Shown piece after piece: positions 2,510 to 64,000 of a stretch of DNA of 64,000 bases (its first letter is position 1; the number at the start of each line of letters is the position of its first letter). The DNA comes from Sipunculus nudus. Lineage: Eukaryota > Annelida > Sipuncula > Golfingiida > Sipunculidae. Below the pieces are notes generated by a model. It was not told where the DNA came from. It saw only the letters and a list, made by a program, of their open reading frames with translations, and searched no databases. The position numbers and the translations under genes were made by a program. Location of the stretch: contig CM049306.1 in assembly GCA_026874595.1 (NCBI GenBank), positions 57,976,019 to 58,040,018 on the forward strand, in the 5' to 3' direction.

Positions 2510-4131
2510 CTGTTTAAAATGAATTTATATTGAAACATTTACATTTCCCAATTTAAAATCACAAAGAACCGATGGGATCGCATTAGTGCGTTCTTAACAT
2601 TAATTTACGATAAATATTGGAAGATTATTTAAAATAATATAAAATTAGAACACTGAAATAAAGTGACAATTTTATTTCAAACAAACTGCATCTAGGAGTT
2701 ATTTAACTGAATACTATCGATGCTAGTGCCTACCTTTCTTTGAGCAATACAATACACAGATAATATGTGAGAAAGTGTTGATCAGATAAAAATGAAATAT
2801 AAGACATAAGATACGTTTTCATACGATTAAATATAAGACACAAGATAAAAAAATGTTACAATGTGCGGCACCTTTAATGGATTTTACTATGTGCAGCAAT
2901 ATGCATTATAAGGCTTTTAACCTGTTTTATGTAAGATCTTATATGAAACTTCAAAAGTTGTACCTACGTGATATATCAGACAAATGAACGATGACCGTCG
3001 CCTCTGCCGTCCGAATTGGTGATCCACCATCGTAAGCAACCAGAGTAAGATTGATGTCAGTGACCGGTGGTTCGACACGGCTGATATAACTGATTTCCCC
3101 GGTAGTGATGTTAACTTTGAAGTGGTCTTTATAGCTGCTTTCTAACTGCCTGTATGTAATATTTTTGTTATAATCAATCTGGTCTCTGTCAGTCGTTTCA
3201 ACTTTAGCCACGGGCCTGTCGCCGGTGGAGTTCCTGAACATGTAGAATTTGTATGGCGACTGAGTGAATTTTGGCGGGAAACTGTTGAAAACCGAGACGG
3301 TAATGATCACATTTTTATAGTCCACAACCCCAGCGGACGAGGCTACTATCATAAAACGGTAGGTCTCGCCTACGGGCCGAGTTATCTCGACTTTTGTTCT
3401 GAGTTCACCACTAAAGCGATCAACTTGGAAGGTGCCGCTGTCTTGGCCGCTTAGATGGTATTCCACAGTGTCGCTCACCGAACACTTCTGACCAACTGTA
3501 CTACAAGCACGTACTGTCAGCACATGCAGGCCCTCAGGCGCGTTGACGTACACACGGACACGATACGGCGCGTCTAGGAACTGTATGCTGCCTTAAAAAG
3601 GAAATAAACATCTGGTTAATTTTTATTCATATGTAAATTAAATAAAATGTTTAGAAGTAACAAATAATACTCAAGTACGACACGAATCACTTAGATCTTG
3701 ACATTTTCCATGACAAGATTGATACAAAATGGCAAATTACTCTTGAAGAACCATACGGAAGCGAGAGACCACCACTAGACAATAGCTGATTGCTTCCTCG
3801 TTTAGTTAAACTATTTTGCCATTAATGTAGACCATAGATGGAAATATTGAGAAAAAAACATTGTTATGCCATATTGGGACAAAATCATCCGGCAACTATT
3901 TGATTATTATTCTTTTTTTTAAATTTACATATAAGATATAAAGAAAAGAGAAGTATTCTCATTATTCCTTCTTATTTTGCTATTTCTAATTGATTCATGA
4001 TAAATGACAAACTCTGATGTAATGTTAACATAATAATACTTACTCTTCACTGTGATCGGTAGAGTGATCACCATAAGACAGATGTTTATGAGCAGGGTTT
4101 CCATGGTAACACGCCTATTTGGTGGTTGCAT
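2228..4131 (-). CDS. Cadherin-repeat/FN3 receptor-like protein, 5' part of gene
   Basis: Three exons read in one consistent frame on the minus strand: 4131-4044 (start and signal peptide), 3591-2968 (two cadherin repeats) and 2509-2228 (FN3). Each junction is phase 1 with GT/AG boundaries, so the 624-bp and 282-bp internal exons are symmetric 1-1 modules, typical of extracellular multidomain proteins. Several N-x-S/T sites fit a secreted or membrane protein. After the FN3 exon there is a strong GTAAGT donor, and the remaining exons (further domains, membrane span, cytoplasmic part) are not recognisable before the left edge. Cadherin repeats mediate calcium-dependent adhesion, and FN3 domains are binding spacers. 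A cadherin-to-FN3 order is uncommon, so the family stays open: adhesion receptor or lineage-specific receptor kinase are possible. Confidence 0.75.
2968..3591 (-). CDS. Exon with two cadherin repeats
   Basis: The exon begins after TTTTTAAG (3592) and ends before GTAGGT (2967). The first repeat has the F-x-V-D-x-x-SGEL signature. The second has F-K-V-N-x-x-TGEI, a degenerate calcium-site stretch (TDRDQIDYNKNITY) and the A-Y-DGGSP motif. The first repeat lacks an obvious full DxD/DxNDN calcium set, so it may be a degenerate membrane-distal repeat. An alternative donor four bases downstream (AG|GTACAA) would break frame with the FN3 exon, so the phase 1 donor is preferred. Confidence 0.75.

Positions 4132-17385: not shown

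Positions 17386-17419
<34 letters not shown>
17386..17419. repeat. (TA)n microsatellite
   Basis: An alternating TA run directly 3' (on the minus strand) of the hammerhead motifs. Short TA tracts beside such motifs fit retroelement ends. Confidence 0.95.
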
Positions 17420-17423
<4 letters not shown>

Positions 17424-17446
17424 TCTGAAGAAAAAGAACACTGTAA

Positions 17447-17494
17447 ATTCACAACAGTCTGTTTCACGGGATGTGACCCGATCATCAGGTGAAT
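17447..17494 (-). ncRNA. Hammerhead ribozyme motif 1 (type I, short stem III)
   Basis: On the minus strand the order is: stem I 5' ATTCAC; core CTGATGA; stem II arms CGGG and CCCG with a 6-nt loop; core GAA; stem III ACA-GAC-TGT; T at the cleavage position; stem I 3' GTGAAT. Stem I is a perfect 6 bp and stem III only 3 bp with a 3-nt loop. This is the minimal type I architecture known from Penelope-like elements and retrozymes. Predicted self-cleavage lies between 17453 and 17452. One caveat: the bases flanking stem II next to the core are U and U rather than a standard pair. Confidence 0.75.
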
Positions 17495-17510
17495 GTGGTT
17501 ATATATATAC

Positions 17511-17769
17511 ATATTATCACGTACCTCACAGAACGTGCTACCGTCGGTTTCACGCCTTTGGCGATCGTCAGGCGGACTGACCCGTGAGTGGTTTCGTGTG
17601 GTGAAACGGGTCGTTGTCATTGTCTGGTGGTTTTGCCTGGTGTTTTTTTCAGTCAGGCTCCAGTGCCTGCATTTACAGATTTGTTCGGATCTTTTGAGTG
17701 ATTTCCTATTAAATATTAATGTGCTTTTTCCTCAGACGGTAGCAGGTTCTCTGAAGTACGTGATAATAT
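17511..17769. repeat. Inverted relic copy of the hammerhead 3' flank
   Basis: Positions 17547-17511 (minus) and 17733-17769 (plus) match at 33 of 37 positions, including a perfect 14-mer GTACGTGATAATAT. The plus-strand copy keeps the ACGGTAGCA cleavage-side sequence but its upstream core is lost, so it is a decayed, inverted second copy. Confidence 0.75.
17525..17588 (-). ncRNA. Hammerhead ribozyme motif 2 (type I)
   Basis: On the minus strand: core CTGACGA; stem II CGCC-AAA-GGCG; core GAA; stem III ACC-GAC-GGT; A at the cleavage position (17539/17538). Stem I is a 2-bp GC/GC next to the core, an internal loop, then CTCAC paired with GTGAG. Compared with motif 1, stems II and III differ in sequence on both arms yet stay paired, which argues for selected structure rather than chance. 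The two predicted cleavage sites are 86 nt apart. Confidence 0.7.
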
Positions 17770-17844
17770 ATTCTGCTCTGCAGGAATTATGCATAGAGCA
17801 CTTTCTGATATTCCTCAATATGCTCGCAATTTTAGTTAACTTTG

Positions 17845-17848
<4 letters not shown>

Positions 17849-17906
<58 letters not shown>
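17849..17906. repeat. (TA)n microsatellite
   Basis: A long TA run close to the inverted hammerhead relic on the plus strand, mirroring the TA run beside the intact motifs. Confidence 0.95.
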
Positions 17907-17909
<3 letters not shown>

Positions 17910-51148: not shown

Positions 51149-51302
51149 AGGAAAATCGATGTGATTACATGACAATGCAGGATTGGTAAAGTGTAGGATC
51201 GATGACATAAGTCGCACTGGTCATGAATAAATCTCGAAAGCTGGAATAGACATAAACGAGGGGCGGATCACTTGAAGAATAGCCCAGTAACCGAAGACAA
51301 CA

Positions 51303-52520
51303 ATGAAGCTATTTCTGCTTTCCTGTGCTTTGCTACTGCTGACATCATGTGTGATGTCTTTAGACAATGGGCTGGCTCGCATACCACCCATGGGCTTTTT
51401 GTCATGGGATAGATTTCACTGTAACATTGACTGTGATCACGACCCTCAAAATTGCATCAGTGAGAACCTGTTCAAGCAGATGGCAGATCACATGGTATCA
51501 GATGGCTTCCTGGATGTGGGTTACAACTATGTAAACATCGACGATTGCTGGATGGCCAGGGAACGTGATGTGTCTGGAAGACTCGTGGCCGATCCAAAGA
51601 GATTCCCGAACGGCATCAAAAGCCTGGCAGGATATATGCATGATAAAGGCATGAAGCTTGGAATATATGGAGACGTAGGTAAACGCACCTGTGATGGCTA
51701 CCCTGGGAGCCAAAACCATTTCCAGATGGACGCTCAGACCTTCGCTGACTGGGGTGTCGACATGTTGAAGCTTGATGGCTGCTACAGTGACCCAAAACAG
51801 TTCGATGATGCCTACCCTGCCATGGGCGTATGGTTGAACAAGACAGGCTATCCTATACTTTACTCATGCAGCTGGCCTGCTTATCAGGAACCTGGTACTC
51901 AGCCCAATTATACTAAAATTGCCAAGTATTGTAACATATGGAGAAATTACGTGGATATCCAGGACTCCTGGGACAGCCTGATAGGTATCATAAACTTTTA
52001 CGGTGATAACAAACATCACTTTGTCGAGGTAGCAGGACCTGGAAACTTCAATGATCCAGATGAGCTGAACATTGGTAACAATGGTTTGAGTTACGACCAA
52101 GAGAGGGTACAAATGGCCATGTGGTCTATGATGGCTTCCCCACTTTTGATGTCTGTTGACCTTAGGAATATCAGGCCTGAATCCAAAGCTCTGCTGCTGA
52201 ACAAAAACCTCATCGCCATCAATCAGGACAAGATGGGTAAACAAGGACGACGTATCTCAATGAACGGTGACATCCAGATATGGACACGACCTATCCTACC
52301 ACAAGGGACCATGGCCTTTGCCTTCCTGAACACTGGAACTGATGGAATGCCATCCAAGGTGTCGGCCACCCTGACCAGCATGGGAATGACCAGCGCAAAC
52401 GGCTACAACGTCACAGAGGCCTTTGACGGGACGCACATGGGTAAATTCCTGCCATCAGACTCGATCATGGCTAAGGTCAACCCCACTGGTATATTCGTGG
52501 GCGTGGCCAGGCCATGGTAA
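51303..52520 (+). CDS. NAGA: GH27 alpha-N-acetylgalactosaminidase/alpha-galactosidase, intronless
   Basis: A 405-residue uninterrupted frame. Residues 1-19 are a signal peptide (MKLFLLSCALLLLTS), expected to direct the enzyme to the lysosome or outside the cell. The mature part begins LDNGLARIPPMGFLSW, typical of GH27. The TIM barrel carries IDDCW (79-83), the nucleophile Asp158 in KLDGC, and the acid/base Asp251 in NDPDE. The substrate loop reads SCSWPAY with Ser190 and Ala193, the pair that gives human NAGA its GalNAc preference (GLA has Glu and Leu), so removal of terminal alpha-GalNAc is favoured. Glycosylation sites: N179, N202, N369. A short beta-sandwich ends the protein, and length is normal for the family. 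Vertebrate GLA and NAGA genes have several introns; this one has none, so it may be an intact retrocopy or a lineage that lost introns. Confidence 0.93.
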   Translation: MKLFLLSCALLLLTSCVMSLDNGLARIPPMGFLSWDRFHCNIDCDHDPQNCISENLFKQMADHMVSDGFLDVGYNYVNIDDCWMARERDVSGRLVADPKRFPNGIKSLAGYMHDKGMKLGIYGDVGKRTCDGYPGSQNHFQMDAQTFADWGVDMLKLDGCYSDPKQFDDAYPAMGVWLNKTGYPILYSCSWPAYQEPGTQPNYTKIAKYCNIWRNYVDIQDSWDSLIGIINFYGDNKHHFVEVAGPGNFNDPDELNIGNNGLSYDQERVQMAMWSMMASPLLMSVDLRNIRPESKALLLNKNLIAINQDKMGKQGRRISMNGDIQIWTRPILPQGTMAFAFLNTGTDGMPSKVSATLTSMGMTSANGYNVTEAFDGTHMGKFLPSDSIMAKVNPTGIFVGVARPW

Positions 52521-56340: not shown

Positions 56341-57290
56341 TTACATATTTAAATTCCTTGGTTTTACAACTGGTCTGCAATAACGAGTGTAATATTTTCC
56401 AGTATTTGGTTCACGTGATGTCAGAGGTTCATCTCGTGGGTCTGTTGCTGGACTCTCTGGCACGGAGGGAGGATCATCACATTTAGCATTTGGGTGGAAA
56501 CGAACTCTTTTCTCAGGCTGTAGTTCACTGATTACACGGCGGTTGCGCCGGAGGCGGGACCTTTCTTGGGTCTCCCCTATATATGTGTGTGGTTCACTGT
56601 AGGTATCTGCCACATTAGAGGGTTTCCAAAGCTTTGTGGCTGGGTCCTGCACAGTCACGGGCTGTCCTGGAGAAAGAGGTGCAAGATCTTTAGCATTCTG
56701 ATTATAATATTTCTCTTACAATCCATGTGTTTCTAATAACCTGTTATTAACATGATCCCTCCAGTGCGTTTGGTTTGTGGCACGAAATGGCAGATTGCCC
56801 TGTGATTTGCGGCCATATAGCAGTTCGGCTGGGCTGGGAATAGCCGAATCTATTGTAGTTGTGCGTAGGCGCAGCAAAGCGATGTTTGTATCCATGCCAC
56901 TGGCTTTTGCTTTACTCATGGTCTTTTTTACAGTTTTCACCATGCGCTCAGCAAAATCATGGACTATGGATAGTTTGGTAAACTGGTGACGTGGTCAAAT
57001 CCCCAAACTTTGGCAAACTGTTTGAAATGCTCAGTACCATACTGGGGTCCGTTATCACCGATAACTCGATTGGGAACTCCATATTCGCTGAAGATTTGTT
57101 TCAGTGCACTGACAATGGCCTGGCTTGAGCAATGGGTAGGCATCTTTCTTACAATTGGGAATTTTGTGTAATAGTCTGCTACCAACAAGTATTCAAAATT
57201 GTCTAATTGCAACAGTTCTGTACCAATGATTTGCCATGGGCCTGTTGGGATTTCGTGAGGCAATGTTTCTTTCTGTTATGCATTCTGGTA
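56341..57290 (-). pseudogene. Ty3/gypsy integrase fragment, frameshifted
   Basis: On the minus strand three blocks in shifting frames. 57263-56964 is the integrase core start (GPWQIIGTELL, ADYYTKFP, then GDNGPQYGTEHF with the second catalytic Asp). 56950-56716 contains A-E-R-M-V with the catalytic Glu and SPAELLYGR. 56658-56341 is the C-terminal part (LWKPSNV, SRLRRNRR). At the first catalytic position the G-T-D of relatives reads G-T-E (about 57218). Frameshifts separate the blocks, so it is not functional. It lies downstream of the RNase H remains, i.e. canonical gypsy order, on the strand opposite to the neighbouring element. Confidence 0.8.
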
Positions 57291-57630
57291 CTCCTGACAG
57301 ATAAGACAACTGGTGTTTCAATATCCTGCTTTAGAACGAGCCAATACGCACAATCTTTAGCGCGTAGCTGACATTTTACCACACCCTGGTGGGCTGCATG
57401 AATTTTCTCTAAGATTTGTTTTTTGGGAATGTATTGGGAACTATAATGCGGTTTTCTTTTAACACGATCCTGTTTTCAACAGACATCTCATCTCTTAATA
57501 ACCAGTATGGTCTCAGGTCTGTTGGTAAGGATTTCTAAAATGCGGCCATCCCGTTACTATGACGTCACACAGAGCATGAAGAACAGGATCTTTTGCAGTC
57601 TCCTGCTTGAGCTGTGAAAGTTTGTCTGAG

Positions 57631-57950
57631 TTAATTTGCACAAAATTGTCTTTTTTTGTAGATCCTGGTTGATATGTGACGCTTGTTTTGACGGTGAGCG
57701 TGAAAGTCTATCAGCAAGAAGCATGTGTGTTTGCCTGGTTTGTCTGTTATCGAAAGATCATAGTTTTCGAGTCTTAAGAGCAAGCGTTGTAAACGCGGAG
57801 GAGCTGCCAGCAGGTTTTCAGCTAAATCATTCAAGTGGTTTGTAGTCACTTTCCACAACGAAATGTTTGCCGTAGAAATATGTATGGAAGCGTTCGCATC
57901 CAAAGACTACAAGCAGTTTCTCTCAATGTTTGCATAACTTGTTTTTTCTT
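57631..57950 (-). pseudogene. Ty3/gypsy RNase H fragment, frameshifted
   Basis: On the minus strand: CERFHTYFYGKHFVVESDYK, a frameshift, then APPRLQRLLLRLENYDLS, DKPGKH and, after another shift, MLLADRLSR. These are the usual markers of the RT-linked RNase H C-terminus. RT itself is absent because the sequence stops at the junction with an LTR at about 57950. Confidence 0.75.
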
Positions 57951-58560
57951 GAGAATTCATGAAGCGTGTGTTGGGCAGGACCTTATAGACTGTTCTAGAA
58001 GTGCAAAATTCCCGGCTTGAGGTGTGAAGGTATATAAAGGGCTGTTGTTTAGAACCAGAGGGCAGACAGCAGAGCAGATACCAGCGGACGCATAAGCGTG
58101 TGTCAGATTCTAAGACCTTATTCGACGAATGCGGCAATTATACATTTTTAAAGATTTTCTCCTGGATGTTATACATTTGGATTTCAGTTTACTGTCTGTG
58201 TTGTTGCAAGAACTTTCCACTGGACTGTCATTCTCCGAGAGTTTACATTCAAAGGACTTATCTTGGTGACAGTGTTGGTATCGAGGTACTGTACCATTAT
58301 CTTTCTCTGTGATTGTATTGACTTGTTGCTATAACGCTGTGTTACTGTATAATTGTATTGATTTAGTGTATTGTATTGTTAGGGTTGTTTTAGGAATAAA
58401 TTATAGTTATTTGTTAACAAAAAAACACTGACTTCTTTATTCATTCCCCTAGACATTTCCCGCTGCGTAGTTTTACAGAATCTGATATTTTTTTTATTTT
58501 TTTTTACAAAATTTGTGTTCATCACGCATACGTGATCTGTTTATATTAGGTTCCGTAACA
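57950..58560 (+). mobile_element. 5'-truncated LTR of gypsy element
   Basis: It matches the 3' 609 bp of the complete LTR at 62222-63004 with a constant offset of 4,444. The first 174 bp of the LTR are missing, replaced by the inverted RNase H fragment. Differences cluster in the first ~25 bp after the junction; the rest appears identical. It holds a TATATAAA (58030-58037) and an AATAAA (58395-58400) and ends in CCGTAACA. Confidence 0.85.
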
Positions 58561-58566
58561 TAAAAT

Positions 58567-58585
58567 TGGGGGCTCTCGTCGGGAT
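58567..58585 (+). promoter_or_regulatory. Primer binding site
   Basis: TGGGGGCTCTCGTCGGGAT starts six bases past the LTR end. It begins with TGG, complementary to a tRNA CCA end, and is close to the tRNA-Pro-type site; the exact tRNA is not established. The second copy is at 63011-63029. Confidence 0.65.
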
Positions 58586-58728
58586 GCTTAATTTTTTTCA
58601 AATTTATAAGGCCTTGACCTGGACACGTTGTTTTATCATACATTGTTTACACGATTACATATTGTTTACAGTACATTGTTTACAGGATTTATCTCAGTGT
58701 TTTTTTGTTATTGTTTTAACATCTTAAC

Positions 58729-59931
58729 ATGGCAGATTTCAAACCTGAGACATTTGTTGACGATCCGGACCCTGATCAACTTGAACAGTTGTCCAAAGAC
58801 TAGTTGTTGCGTTTGGGACAACACTTAGGGCTAAATGTGAAAAAAGCTTTAAGAAAGCCTGATATCATTGCTAAAATCATGCAAGATCTTATTAGCAAAG
58901 GTTTAATTGAAGAGAATGAAGTTGCAAAATAAAATAAATGACAGCCTTGCTATGCAATTAGAATTTAAAAAGTTGGAAATGCAACATGAGCTAGCATTAA
59001 AAGAGAAAGAAAATGAAATTGAGTTAAAACGACTGGAGTTAGAAAGACTTAAACTAGAACATAGTCTACGTGCTGCCCCAACTCACAGTTTTGATGTTGC
59101 TAAACACATTAGACTTGTCCCACCTTTTCAGGAAAAAGAGGTTGATAAATATTTCTTACACTTTGAGAAGATGGCTGAAAATTTAAAATGGTCTAAGGAA
59201 TATTGGACTATGCTGTCACAAAGTGTATTGACTGGAAAAGACAGAAAAAATTATAAAGAGCTTTCAGTAGAAGCTGCTGCTGACTATGACCTGGTAAAAC
59301 GGTGAATCCGAAAAGGTTATGAGTTAGTTCCAGAGGCTTACCGCCAGATATTCAGAAATTTGGAAAAGCGCAAAAACAGACCTACGATGAATTTGCTAGG
59401 ACAAAAGAGCAGTTGTTTGATCGCTGGTGTAGTTCTAAAAATGTAATGAAAGATTATGACAATTTGCGCCAGTTGATTTTGCTTGAAGAATTAAAGCGCT
59501 GCATTAATGCAGATGTTAAAACTTTTCTCGATGAGAAAAGTCTTGAAACACTTGACATTGCTGCTCAGTTAGCTGATGAATATTCATTGACACACAAAAT
59601 GTCCTTTACTAGCAAATCAAACCAGTCATTCACAAATAGGAATGTAAAACAGTATGGTCAAAAGAAGTTTACAGCGCAGTCTCTGGGTACTAGTAGTCCT
59701 GATAGTTCACCAAAGCCCAAAGCTACTCCTCAGTCCACGTCCACTGTGTCGAAGTCCAAAGACCAGTCATTTTAAAAGAAAATCTGTAATTACTGCAAGA
59801 AGGAAGGTCATCTAATATCTGACTGCTGGAAACTTCCGAATAAACCAAATAGCAAACCTTCTGGTTTTGTTTCAAAATCTATGCATAGCTATTACAAGAG
59901 CCAGGCTCTTTTCATGTAAATAAGGGGTACA
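58729..59931 (+). pseudogene. Gypsy gag, degenerate
   Basis: It starts with ATG at 58729 but has a TAG after 24 codons (58801-58803). A frameshift near 58917 leads into the main block (58907-59305) with a charged coiled coil (repeated ELALKEKENEIELKRLELER pattern) and VAKHIRLVPPFQEKEVDKYF. A TGA (59303-59305) and another shift precede 59413-59775 (NLRQLILLEELKRC, a SCAN-like capsid motif). TAA at 59773 precedes, in frame, a CCHC zinc knuckle (C-x2-C-x4-H-x4-C, 59785-59826). The family packages element RNA. Confidence 0.8.
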
Positions 59932-60726
59932 ACTCCTTTGTTGACTCAAATAAAGAGTTTGATGCTACGGAGGCCCAAGTGCCGACTGAATCCAAAGACG
60001 AATCCGCAGAATTTTGGGGTAAAAACCTTAGTTGATTCCTGCGAGGAATTAAATAAGGCTAGGTCCTTTCAAGACTCCTGCGAGGAGTGTTCTCTAAATG
60101 AGGCTAAGTCATTTTATGACTCTTGAGAGAGTATTTCAGATGAGGCCAGGTCCTCTTATGACAAACAAAAGTTTGTTTCTGCTGAGGAAAATTCCTCTGT
60201 TGACTCCCATGAGGAGTTTGGTAAGGATGTAGATTTCTTAGATGACTCTCAAACAGAGTTTATGACTGACACCTTCAATGTCAGTTCTTTGTTTGTTGAG
60301 GTTGAGGTAGTAGATTCCTCTCCTGACTCTGAAATAGAGTTATTTGAGCCATTCATACATGATGGTTTTGTATCACTTTCAAGTGATTTTTCAGATTCTA
60401 TCCCTAATAGAATTTTGAGGGACACTGGTTCAGGCCAGCCTCTCATGTTAGCAAACAATTTGCCATTTTCTAATAGGTCCTTTACTGGTGCATATGCACT
60501 TGTTAATGGTGTGTTTTCAGACAAGCACACTTCAGTTCCGCTTCACAGTATCCATTTAAAGTCAGATTTGATTTCTAGCAATATTACTGTGGGCATAATA
60601 ACTACTTTACCCTTTAAGAGAATTCAGTTGCTACTAGGCAATGATGTTGCAGGTGATAAAGTACAGCCTGTACCAATAGTGACAGAAAAGCCGTCACTTG
60701 ATCAGGACAATGATCCGGAAAGTTAG
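59932..60726 (+). pseudogene. Gypsy acidic spacer and aspartic protease
   Basis: A Ser/Glu/Asp-rich stretch with repeated S-C-E-E and D-S motifs (to about 60400, with one TGA at 60124) is followed by the retropepsin: ILRDTGSGQPLML with the catalytic D-T-G at 60421-60429 and the later IQLLLGNDVAGDKV strand. The protease part of the frame (60262-60726) is intact and ends in TAG. Confidence 0.75.
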
Positions 60727-60738
60727 GAAATTCCTGGT

Positions 60739-61396
60739 TTGTATCCTTCATGTGCTGTAACTAGAACTATGGCCAAGAAAAACACACATGAGAATAATGG
60801 TCCAGATAATAACACTCTGGGAGTCACTAGTGACCCGTCTAATGACTCGCCCGTACAGGATGCAGCATTCTCAAGGTCAGAACTTATCGCGGAACAGCAT
60901 AAGGACCCTGGTATTTCATGTTTGTTTCCCAGGGCAGTTTCTAAAGATGAACTGTCACAGAACCCAGTTTGTTTCTATGTTAAAAATGGAGTGCGTATGC
61001 GTAAATGGCGACCACCTGATGTATGTGCTGATGATGAGTGGGCCATCAAACATCAAATAGTAATGCCCAAAAGCTTTCGCCATTAAATTCTAAGCATGGC
61101 ACATGAGACTCCTTTGGCTGGCCATTTAGGTATAAATAAAACTTATCAGAAAGTTAGTACACACTTCTTTTGGCCTAACCTCAGGAAGATGTTGTACAAT
61201 ATTGTAAATCATGCCATACATGTCAGATGGTAGGCAAGCCCAATCAGAATCCTCCTTAGGCCCCACTTAGGCCTATTCCTGCTTTCGTGGAACCATTCAG
61301 TAGGATTATTGTTGATTGTGTTGGACCACTGCCCAAAACAAAATCTGGACATGAATACTTGCTGACAATTATGTGCACATCTACCAGGTTCCCAGT
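60739..61396 (+). pseudogene. Gypsy integrase N-terminal part
   Basis: After a linker (AFSRSELIAEQHKDPGI) comes the H2C2 zinc-binding region, broken by a stop at 61084: AHETPLAGHLGINKTYQKV, FFWPNLRK and, after a shift, YCKSCHTCQ. The catalytic core then begins at 61287 (PFSRIIVDCVGPLP, first catalytic Asp at about 61314) and stops abruptly after TSTRFP. The second Asp and the Glu are absent. Confidence 0.75.
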
Positions 61397-62090
61397 CAAC
61401 TTAGTGAAATCGGAACTTTGTCATGCACAAGTAACATTTTTGGGTCATATTGTAGGGCAGGGCCAGGTAAAACCTGTTGATGCTAAGATAAGTGCTATTT
61501 CTGCATTCCCTAGACCAGACAACAAAAAGCAAATAATGCGTTTTCTTGGTATGGTCGGGTACTACAGGAAGTTTTGTCCAAATTTTTCTGCTGTAGCTGA
61601 ACCTTTGACTAATTTGTCAAAGAAGAAACAAAAGTTTGTATGGAATGTTCAGTGTGAAAATGCATTTCAGAATTTGAAAGCCATTTTGCAAAGTTCACCA
61701 GTTTTAGTAGCTCCACACGTTTCTGTACCTTTTAAGTTAGCTGTGGATGCTAGTGACACTGCTGCTGATGCTGTGTTGTTACAAGAAGGCAAAGATGGCA
61801 TAGATCATCCAATTTGTTATTTCTCAAGAAAGTTTATTGCAAACCAGAAAAACTACCCCACTATTGAAAAAGAATGTTTGGCTATGATTTTGGCGTTGCA
61901 ACATTTTGAAGTTTATGTTACTTCATCAGTCAGACCTATCATTGTCTTCAGTGATCACAATCCCCTCACGTTCATGAACAAATTGAAGTGTAAAAATCAA
62001 GGATTGTTGAGATGGAGTTTGTTCATACAGGATTACAATCTTGATATCGTACACATTAAAGGAAAAGATAATGTACTTCCTGATTGCTAA
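61397..62090 (+). pseudogene. Gypsy RT C-terminal end and RNase H
   Basis: It is fused in frame to the integrase start. It has the RT thumb/connection markers CHAQVTFLGHIVGQGQVKP and MRFLGMVGYYRKF, then the RNase H: LAVDASDTAADAVLLQ, PTIEKECLAMILAL, FSDHNPL and KGKDNVLPDC just before the stop. The RT palm and fingers with the Y-x-D-D site are missing. Nothing but a short non-coding stretch and the polypurine tract follows. Confidence 0.85.
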
Positions 62091-62210
62091 TAGAGATTTT
62101 TATAAAATGTTGTAAACATGATGTTTATGTGATGTTGTAGATAAGCTGCTTTTTGAGATGTTGTAAGGATTTAGTGATTGTTTTCCGTGAAAACTTTCTT
62201 TTTTTCTTAC

Positions 62211-62221
62211 AGGAGGGGGAG
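62211..62221 (+). promoter_or_regulatory. Polypurine tract
   Basis: AGGAGGGGGAG directly precedes the LTR start TGTTAC, after a pyrimidine-rich run; it would be the plus-strand priming site. Confidence 0.8.
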
Positions 62222-63004
62222 TGTTACAGGTGCTCTATTATGTGACACGGGCGTAACTCGTGTTGTTGTTACATTTTATGTTTAATCTGTACTGGCTGGG
62301 CTCTCGTTGTCGTGTGAGCCTTGGGTTTTCACGCCTGGTCGTGGGTCACGTGATGAGCCTGGTATGTGTGGAGATACACAGCGCTGTTCTTTTAGAGAAT
62401 TCCTAAAACGTGTGTGGGGCAGGACCTTATAGACTGTTCTAGAAGTGCAAAATTCCCGGCTTGAGGTGTGAAGGTATATAAAGGGCTGTTGTTTAGAACC
62501 AGAGGGCAGACAGCAGAGCAGATACCAGCGGACGCATAAGCGTGTGTCAGATTCTAAGACCTTATTCGACGAATGCGGCAATTATACATTTTTAAAGATT
62601 TTCTCCTGGATGTTATACATTTGGATTTCAGTTTACTGTCTGTGTTGTTGCAAGAACTTTCCACTGGACTGTCATTCTCCGAGAGTTTACATTCAAAGGA
62701 CTTATCTTGGTGACAGTGTTGGTATCGAGGTACTGTACCATTATCTTTCTCTGTGATTGTATTGACTTGTTGCTATAACGCTGTGTTACTGTATAATTGT
62801 ATTGATTTAGTGTATTGTATTGTTAGGGTTGTTTTAGGAATAAATTATAGTTATTTGTTAACAAAAAAACACTGACTTCTTTATTCATTCCCCTAGACAT
62901 TTCCCGCTGCGTAGTTTTACAGAATCTGATATTTTTTTTATTTTTTTTTACAAAATTTGTGTTCATCACGCATACGTGATCTGTTTATATTAGGTTCCGT
63001 AACA
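62222..63004 (+). mobile_element. Complete 783-bp LTR
   Basis: It begins TGTTAC and ends GTAACA (a 6-bp inverted repeat with TG...CA ends). It contains a TATATAAA (62474-62481) and an AATAAA (62839-62844). It is both the 3' LTR of the left element and the 5' LTR of the partial element to the right. Confidence 0.9.
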
Positions 63005-64000
63005 TAAAATTGGGGGCTCTCGTCGGGATGCTTAATTTTTTTCAAATTTATAAGGCCTTGACCTGGACACGTTGTTTTATCATACATTGTTTACACGATT
63101 ACATATTGTTTACAGTACATTGTTTACAGGATTTATCTCAGTGTTTTTTTGTTATTGTTTTAACATCTTAACATGGCAGATTTCAAACCTGAGACATTTG
63201 TTGACGATCCGGACCCTGATCAACTTGAACAGTTGTCCAAAGACTAGTTGTTGCGTTTGGGACAACACTTAGGGCTAAATGTGAAAAAAGCTTTAAGAAA
63301 GCCTGATATCATTGCTAAAATCATGCAAGATCTTATTAGCAAAGGTTTAATTGAAGAGAATGAAGTTGCAAAATAAAATAAATGACAGCCTTGCTATGCA
63401 ATTAGAATTTAAAAAGTTGGAAATGCAACATGAGCTAGCATTAAAAGAGAAAGAAAATGAAATTGAGTTAAAACGACTGGAGTTAGAAAGACTTAAACTA
63501 GAACATAGTCTACGTGCTGCCCCAACTCACAGTTTTGATGTTGCTAAACACATTAGACTTGTCCCACCTTTTCAGGAAAAAGAGGTTGATAAATATTTCT
63601 TACACTTTGAGAAGATGGCTGAAAATTTAAAATGGTCTAAGGAATATTGGACTATGCTGTCACAAAGTGTATTGACTGGAAAAGACAGAAAAAATTATAA
63701 AGAGCTTTCAGTAGAAGCTGCTGCTGACTATGACCTGGTAAAACGGTGAATCCGAAAAGGTTATGAGTTAGTTCCAGAGGCTTACCGCCAGATATTCAGA
63801 AATTTGGAAAAGCGCAAAAACAGACCTACGATGAATTTGCTAGGACAAAAGAGCAGTTGTTTGATCGCTGGTGTAGTTCTAAAAATGTAATGAAAGATTA
63901 TGACAATTTGCGCCAGTTGATTTTGCTTGAAGAATTAAAGCGCTGCATTAATGCAGATGTTAAAACTTTTCTCGATGAGAAAAGTCTTGAAACACTTGAC
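63005..64000 (+). pseudogene. Second copy of gypsy leader and gag, cut by window edge
   Basis: It repeats 58561-59556 at an offset of 4,444, including the primer binding site, the early TAG (63245-63247), the frameshift and the TGA (63747-63749). I see no differences by eye. Confidence 0.85.

Follow-up and report, generated by a model that had tools for sequence, protein, structure and literature searches.

Hammerhead ribozymes in Penelope-like elements (PLEs) were reportedly described by Cervera and de la Pena in 2014. The parts of published accounts considered here describe PLEs as carrying hammerheads, and one of these accounts (PMC7761336, in part) gives helix III nucleotides as usually absent, whereas the hammerheads reported below have a near-palindromic stem III of 3-4 bp and mostly U.U at positions 10.1/11.1. 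The PAc element of Anolis, as portrayed in sections of PMC11167929, resembles the elements found here in its type I hammerhead within a pseudo-LTR, its tandem units, a tail with two 3' ends, and AT-rich targets. Those sections explain the PLE tail by two reverse transcription starts and report a preference for AT-rich DNA, both strands of which are cut and extended. They also report that the hammerhead cleaved only after the protein was added, and that insertion in vitro was independent of the hammerhead.

The Penelope elements of Adineta vaga (PMC3846280, in part) are similar to those found here in their pLTRs, optional tail, 5' truncation, solo pLTRs and head-to-head inverted copies, the last described in that text as the commonest PLE form. 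They differ in that TA repeats flank the copies found here, that the ORF of the representative element L070 has 690 aa as against ~830-842 aa, and that GIY-YIG is suggested here only by eye or at E 0.13. Metazoan non-LTR retrozymes (PMC7229834, in part) share type I hammerheads with our elements, and axolotl HHR_Amex2 shares a U.U mismatch at the base of helix II. According to the same passages, HHR_Amex2 cleaves better as a dimer, and amphibian hammerheads whose helix III is weak and palindrome-capped act as dimers. Retrozymes are described there as non-coding repeats of ~150-450 bp, whereas our tandem unit measures ~2.9 kb and contains an ORF, and the hammerhead pair 86 nt apart is a junction of two families. 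No title in literature listings for hammerhead, Penelope, mollusc, microsatellite and retrotransposon concerned TA-flanked PLE hammerheads, which is a statement about those listings and not about all that is in print.

Two hammerheads on the minus strand

In the window (the whole 64-kb stretch of DNA analyzed), two type I hammerhead cores lie in the same orientation on the minus strand at 17447-17588, and the cleavage sites predicted for them are separated by 86 nt. They are embedded in the following features.

17386..17420, no strand: (TA)n tract adjoining the PLE-B piece at its 3' end
17421..17499, minus: PLE-B copy with 5' truncation; its pseudo-LTR end runs from ACCACATTCAC through GAGTT and differs in 4 places from the majority sequence in an alignment of 27 copies
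17447..17494, minus: hammerhead 1 (motif 1) with a 6-bp stem I, predicted cleavage 17453/17452
17500..17510, minus: short TA-rich junction between the short 3' end of PLE-A and the PLE-B piece
17511..17734, minus: sense copy of PLE-A, 5'-truncated, ending in ..ATAATAT, with a 5' limit uncertain by some tens of bases
17516..17731, minus: C-terminal remnant of the PLE-A ORF (..KRSEQICKCRHWS..), a stop-free frame through the hammerhead
17537..17573, minus: hammerhead 2 (motif 2), stem I down to 2 bp, predicted cleavage 17539/17538
17735..17845, plus: inverted partial PLE-A copy, hammerhead-proximal end and tail, head-to-head with the sense copy; locus L003 matches 17735-17844 at 84%
17846..17907, no strand: (TA)n tract on the other side of the probable composite insertion

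The core of motif 1 (17488-17453, minus) belongs to an RNA that reads AUUCAC-CUGAUGA-U-CGGG-UCACAU-CCCG-U-GAA-ACA-GAC-UGU-U up to the predicted cleavage site and GUGAAU beyond it. Its parts are a 6-bp stem I (AUUCAC/GUGAAU), U10.1, stem II (CGGG/UCACAU/CCCG), U11.1, stem III (ACA/GAC/UGU) and U17. Motif 2 (core 17571-17539, minus) reads GC-CUGACGA-U-CGCC-AAA-GGCG-U-GAA-ACC-GAC-GGU-A and, past the site, GC; its stem II is CGCC/AAA/GGCG, its stem III ACC/GAC/GGU, and position 17 is A. Both motifs have U.U (10.1/11.1) at the base of stem II. Each has the CUGANGA and GAA core, the three helices and the NUH at the cleavage site of a type I hammerhead, with a stem I of only 2 bp in motif 2.

A first-pass annotation of this DNA had described two minus-strand cores in one orientation, and both sequence reading and a descriptor search recovered them. 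Its predicted cleavage positions and 86-nt spacing are exact, the stem I of motif 1 that it called perfect does pair over 6 bp, and stems II and III do, as it noted, differ between the motifs yet stay paired (CGGG/CCCG versus CGCC/GGCG; ACA/UGU versus ACC/GGU). Our type I descriptor, which was drawn up after the motifs were seen and leaves 10.1/11.1 free, matched motifs 1 and 2 and nothing else in the 64 kb, and averaged 0.02 matches (maximum 1) over 200 dinucleotide shuffles. Judged by sequence and pairing both hammerheads are real and look like ordinary PLE parts, with cleavage as a prediction. Because most of its stem I is lost, the window copy of motif 2 probably does not cleave itself; with wobbles counted, it keeps 2 bp, compared with 4 in the copies at L027 and L039 and 7 in those at L035 and L067.

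The families that carry the two motifs

We searched the 1.43-Gb genome with 17420-17650 as the DNA query and obtained 42 places including the window, a sample (40 of 1041 candidates scored) rather than a census. Among the 41 non-self places listed, the motif-1 part occurs alone in 36 and the motif-2 part alone in 5; none of these 41 matches, drawn from the 40 of 1041 candidates scored, holds both motifs. The 30-nt core of motif 1 has 1716 exact genomic copies, and a reversed-pattern control has 0. By sequence comparison, one PLE family (PLE-B) supplies motif 1, as its pseudo-LTR end, and a more diverged one (PLE-A) supplies motif 2, as its pseudo-LTR. The earlier suggestion that these hammerheads are of a kind known from PLEs is upheld by the assignment of both window pieces to PLE families, and the conserved-core copies that it anticipated elsewhere in the genome are the 1716 exact motif-1 cores.

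PLE-B is best seen in L070, a 3.3-kb stretch from one tandem series. A direct repeat, the pseudo-LTR, extends over at least 1-198 and 2875-3065 of this stretch (96.5% identity) with a hammerhead in each copy; a 690-aa ORF lies between these two hammerhead-bearing pseudo-LTRs, and the stretch then ends in GAGTTATA(TA)n. This ORF was matched by PADLOC reverse transcriptase (RT) models (RT_UG17, E 9.1e-6; RT, 1.1e-4; Drt3a, 1.9e-4). L063 holds a 528-aa ORF from a different family, which was matched by the same model set (best E 7.5e-7) and weakly by NCBIfam Drt3a (0.0018, far under cut-off). Searches of Pfam, PHROGs and PDB sequences with the PLE ORFs found no RT. For the GIY-YIG endonuclease, Pfam and PDB sequence searches with these ORFs gave no match, and PHROGs gave one, in L061, at E 0.13. 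Viewed by eye, L063 and L061 contain text resembling what we take to be the GIY-YIG motif, and the YIG half looks missing in L070. Since GIY-YIG is seen only by eye or at E 0.13, and Pfam, PDB and PHROGs are without RT, the name PLE rests on RT similarity and on anatomy. As a separate observation, the L070 and L063 RTs are matched by prokaryotic RT models in PADLOC, by none in Pfam, and in NCBIfam only far below cut-off.

The anatomy of PLE-B includes pseudo-LTRs, tandem and head-to-head copies, and an optional 3' tail. Specifically, a TA run comes after GAGTTA at 784 exact places, and at 525 the pseudo-LTR sequence continues beyond it; some of the tailed ends stop ~62 bases past GAGTTA, at CCTTCTA and TA repeats. 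Inverted pairs were seen with a tail on one side only, as was one inverted junction of two longer copies. By analogy, these two classes of end match the optional tail of described PLEs. From the 1716 exact cores we took the first 100 listed, which all lie on contig C1 and by construction include no diverged copies; they form 20 neighbor pairs less than 6 kb apart, of which 12 are head-to-head, 8 same-strand and 0 tail-to-tail. Seven of the same-strand pairs are spaced 2867-2929 nt and the remaining one, the closest, 1119 nt. One tail-to-tail pair of B ends lies outside this sample, at C1:109661380+/109661408-. Hammerheads ~2.9 kb apart in tandem PLE-B units could cut read-through RNA into units.

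For PLE-A, a stop-free frame in L002 (..CNLCLEDKCTNIFIRNSLNKRPELISKCRH..) continues into the motif-2 hammerhead. With this C-terminal frame as the query, 150 of 564 candidates were scored and 150 places matched; the match in the window is at 17516-17731 on the minus strand (E 4.1e-7, 54% identity). The earlier statement that no RT frame is nearby needs amending to this extent: the C-terminal remnant of a PLE ORF runs through motif 2, and no RT-domain part was seen in it. We fetched 30 loci with this C-terminus, which are not independent (many belong to one family, L057 is the window itself, and some overlap earlier loci); 21 have a descriptor hammerhead and 9 have no descriptor match. In 19 of the 21 the hammerhead is on the same strand, inside or just beyond the PLE match, a query that in family A itself spans the hammerhead; it is elsewhere in L036 and L047. 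Two loci, L003 and L035, contain an A and a B piece within one 3-kb locus, hundreds of bases apart, so the neighborhood of the two families is not unique to the window. A 35-bp inverted repeat (17511-17545/17735-17769) was considered as a transposon terminal repeat, an idea dropped once L003 and L004 identified the repeat as an inverted PLE-A end.

Assembly of the locus and alternative readings

The family membership of both pieces, the copy numbers, the tandem and head-to-head arrangements and the TA-flanked ends are read directly from sequence. The locus is, with high probability, a composite of PLE insertions in TA repeats, with one PLE end nested in the TA-rich tail of another; we infer the order of insertion and a target-primed mechanism. 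First, a family A PLE would have entered a (TA)n tract and left two truncated head-to-head copies, one stopping at the short 3' end, shortly past the hammerhead, and the other bearing a tail. A 5'-truncated end of the less diverged family B would then have entered the TA run that terminates the A copy. Each end would bring the type I hammerhead of its own family from its pseudo-LTR, and for this reason the 86-nt spacing would be accidental. The order rests on divergence, taken as best-match identities: B looks younger than A because the B piece is 92-98% identical to other places (36) and the A piece 84-87% (5). More broadly, a PLE end inserted in the TA-rich tail of another PLE can mimic a tandem ribozyme unit.

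Alternatively, the B piece could be one copy of a ~80-bp non-autonomous family, consisting of a hammerhead and TA repeats, derived from PLE-B and mobile as its own unit. We consider this improbable. A common start, TATATATA joined to ACCAC, in 27 exact cores and the end GAGTTATATATA at 784 places speak for such a family, but the full element in L070 has the same 3' end, 27 is a small share of 1716, and the genome search, through its query 17420-17650, favored TA flanks. As for the 5' boundary, it coincides with the TA nearest to stem I on the upstream side, so microhomology could set it. A retrozyme family of this size, 80 bp, was likewise set aside on the 1716 exact cores, the full element L070, the 27 of 1716 starts and the ~2.9-kb spacing.

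Nested PLE ends also account better for the pair than the reading offered at first pass, a tandem 86-nt unit that may be a minimal or relic form, or than a minimal metazoan retrozyme, in which the two hammerheads would release an 86-nt RNA that circularizes and spreads by reverse transcription. The presence of two same-strand hammerheads, each with plausible stems II and III, is what such an element would show, and in L013 two B hammerheads lie 162 nt apart. However, the window motifs come from different families, 0 of the 41 non-self places hold both, stem I of motif 2 is decayed, and the tandem unit of family B is ~2.9 kb with an ORF. Spacings among the 100 exact B cores are at least 1119 nt for same-strand pairs, in a list that by its nature excludes diverged copies such as the first of L013. 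In the L013 pair, a tailed copy carrying 5 differences precedes one that carries none, and the arrangement reads as a B insertion into the TA tail of a more diverged B copy. TATATATAACCAC precedes only 27 of the 1716 exact cores. Repeats of the metazoan retrozyme type, which are non-coding, arranged in tandem, a few hundred bp long and provided with a single hammerhead, occur neither among the 41 non-self places nor among the 100 exact cores. Overall, the 86-nt unit did not survive the comparison, and a retrozyme here is very improbable.

Model recognition and hammerhead design

Rfam gave no hammerhead match in the window at gathering score; in the locus and in the PLE loci L070 and L063 it gave none even with E values up to 10 allowed. 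The window motifs, L070 and L063 lie under the curated cut-off for RF00163 (Hammerhead_1) and for the other hammerhead models in the library. Across the whole genome RF00163 gave two matches of 23 and 21.9 bits (cut-off 34), and neither locus has a descriptor match. The first-pass annotation had looked for support to a covariance-model search and to conserved-core copies; the former returned nothing above threshold, and the latter were found (1716 exact). An abundant hammerhead set in one genome, with 1716 exact copies of one core, can therefore escape Rfam. For motif 1, energy folding preferred an alternative at -11.3 kcal/mol over the hammerhead at -6.9 kcal/mol, a figure that leaves the non-canonical core unscored. 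The hammerhead form was chosen neither in RNA folding nor in homodimer folding, and the predicted homodimers bear no likeness to a hammerhead.

In 70 loci (249,648 bases) we identified 19 distinct hammerhead cores in 65 instances, overlapping loci being partly double-counted; one Markov control of the descriptor over the collected loci gave 0 matches. Positions 10.1/11.1 are U.U in 17 of the 19 distinct cores, which are mostly variants inside a handful of families, U.C in 1 and G.C in 1. The prevalence of U.U at the base of stem II may contribute to the miss by Rfam. Stem II occurs as CGGG/CCCG, CGCC/GGCG, and UGC or UGCA, and stem III as ACA/UGU, ACC/GGU, ACU/AGU and AACA/UGUU, all paired despite their differing letters. 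Read by eye from the letters, the stem III stretches are near-palindromes. Chance resemblance of palindromic DNA to a hammerhead would suit the silence of Rfam, the best genome-wide RF00163 score of 23 bits against a cut-off of 34 and the non-hammerhead minimum-energy fold, but it is hardly credible given a shuffle mean of only 0.02, a core conserved across several PLE families whose stems differ yet still pair (70 loci with 19 distinct cores, Markov control 0), and the hammerheads of published PLEs as far as the accounts considered describe them.

The U.U at helix II is the single unusual trait of these ribozymes, and axolotl HHR_Amex2 is its precedent. Tentatively, and with more doubt than confidence, we suggest that several PLE families here may have a common design, U.U at the base of helix II with a short near-palindromic stem III, that is nearly inactive alone and needs a partner hammerhead or the protein of the element. 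If so, RNA cutting would be coupled to assembly of the retrotransposition complex. The near-uniform U.U offers a concrete test for the published idea of a protein-assisted PLE hammerhead.

Two collected loci deserve mention. The core on the minus strand of L058 at 1118 is the only one collected with a canonical G.C at 10.1/11.1, and its stem III stretch is a 10-nt palindrome. L014 contains, at ~2056 as oriented, one more hammerhead-like family (CTGATGATCGCC..GGCGTGAAACTCGGAGTA); the piece is short, lies between TA repeats and is 530 nt from a B copy.

Other elements were recognized in the window. Identical ORF repeats (58028-58309 and 62472-62753; 58907-59302 and 63351-63746) within 58028-63746 flank RT/RNase H-like protein text at 61260-62087, which by eye looks like an LTR retrotransposon. 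Broken integrase-like and retroelement-like frames at 56344-57906 on the minus strand are probably another LTR element, again by eye. A 409-aa open frame at 51291-52517 on the plus strand appears, on inspection by eye, alpha-galactosidase-like.
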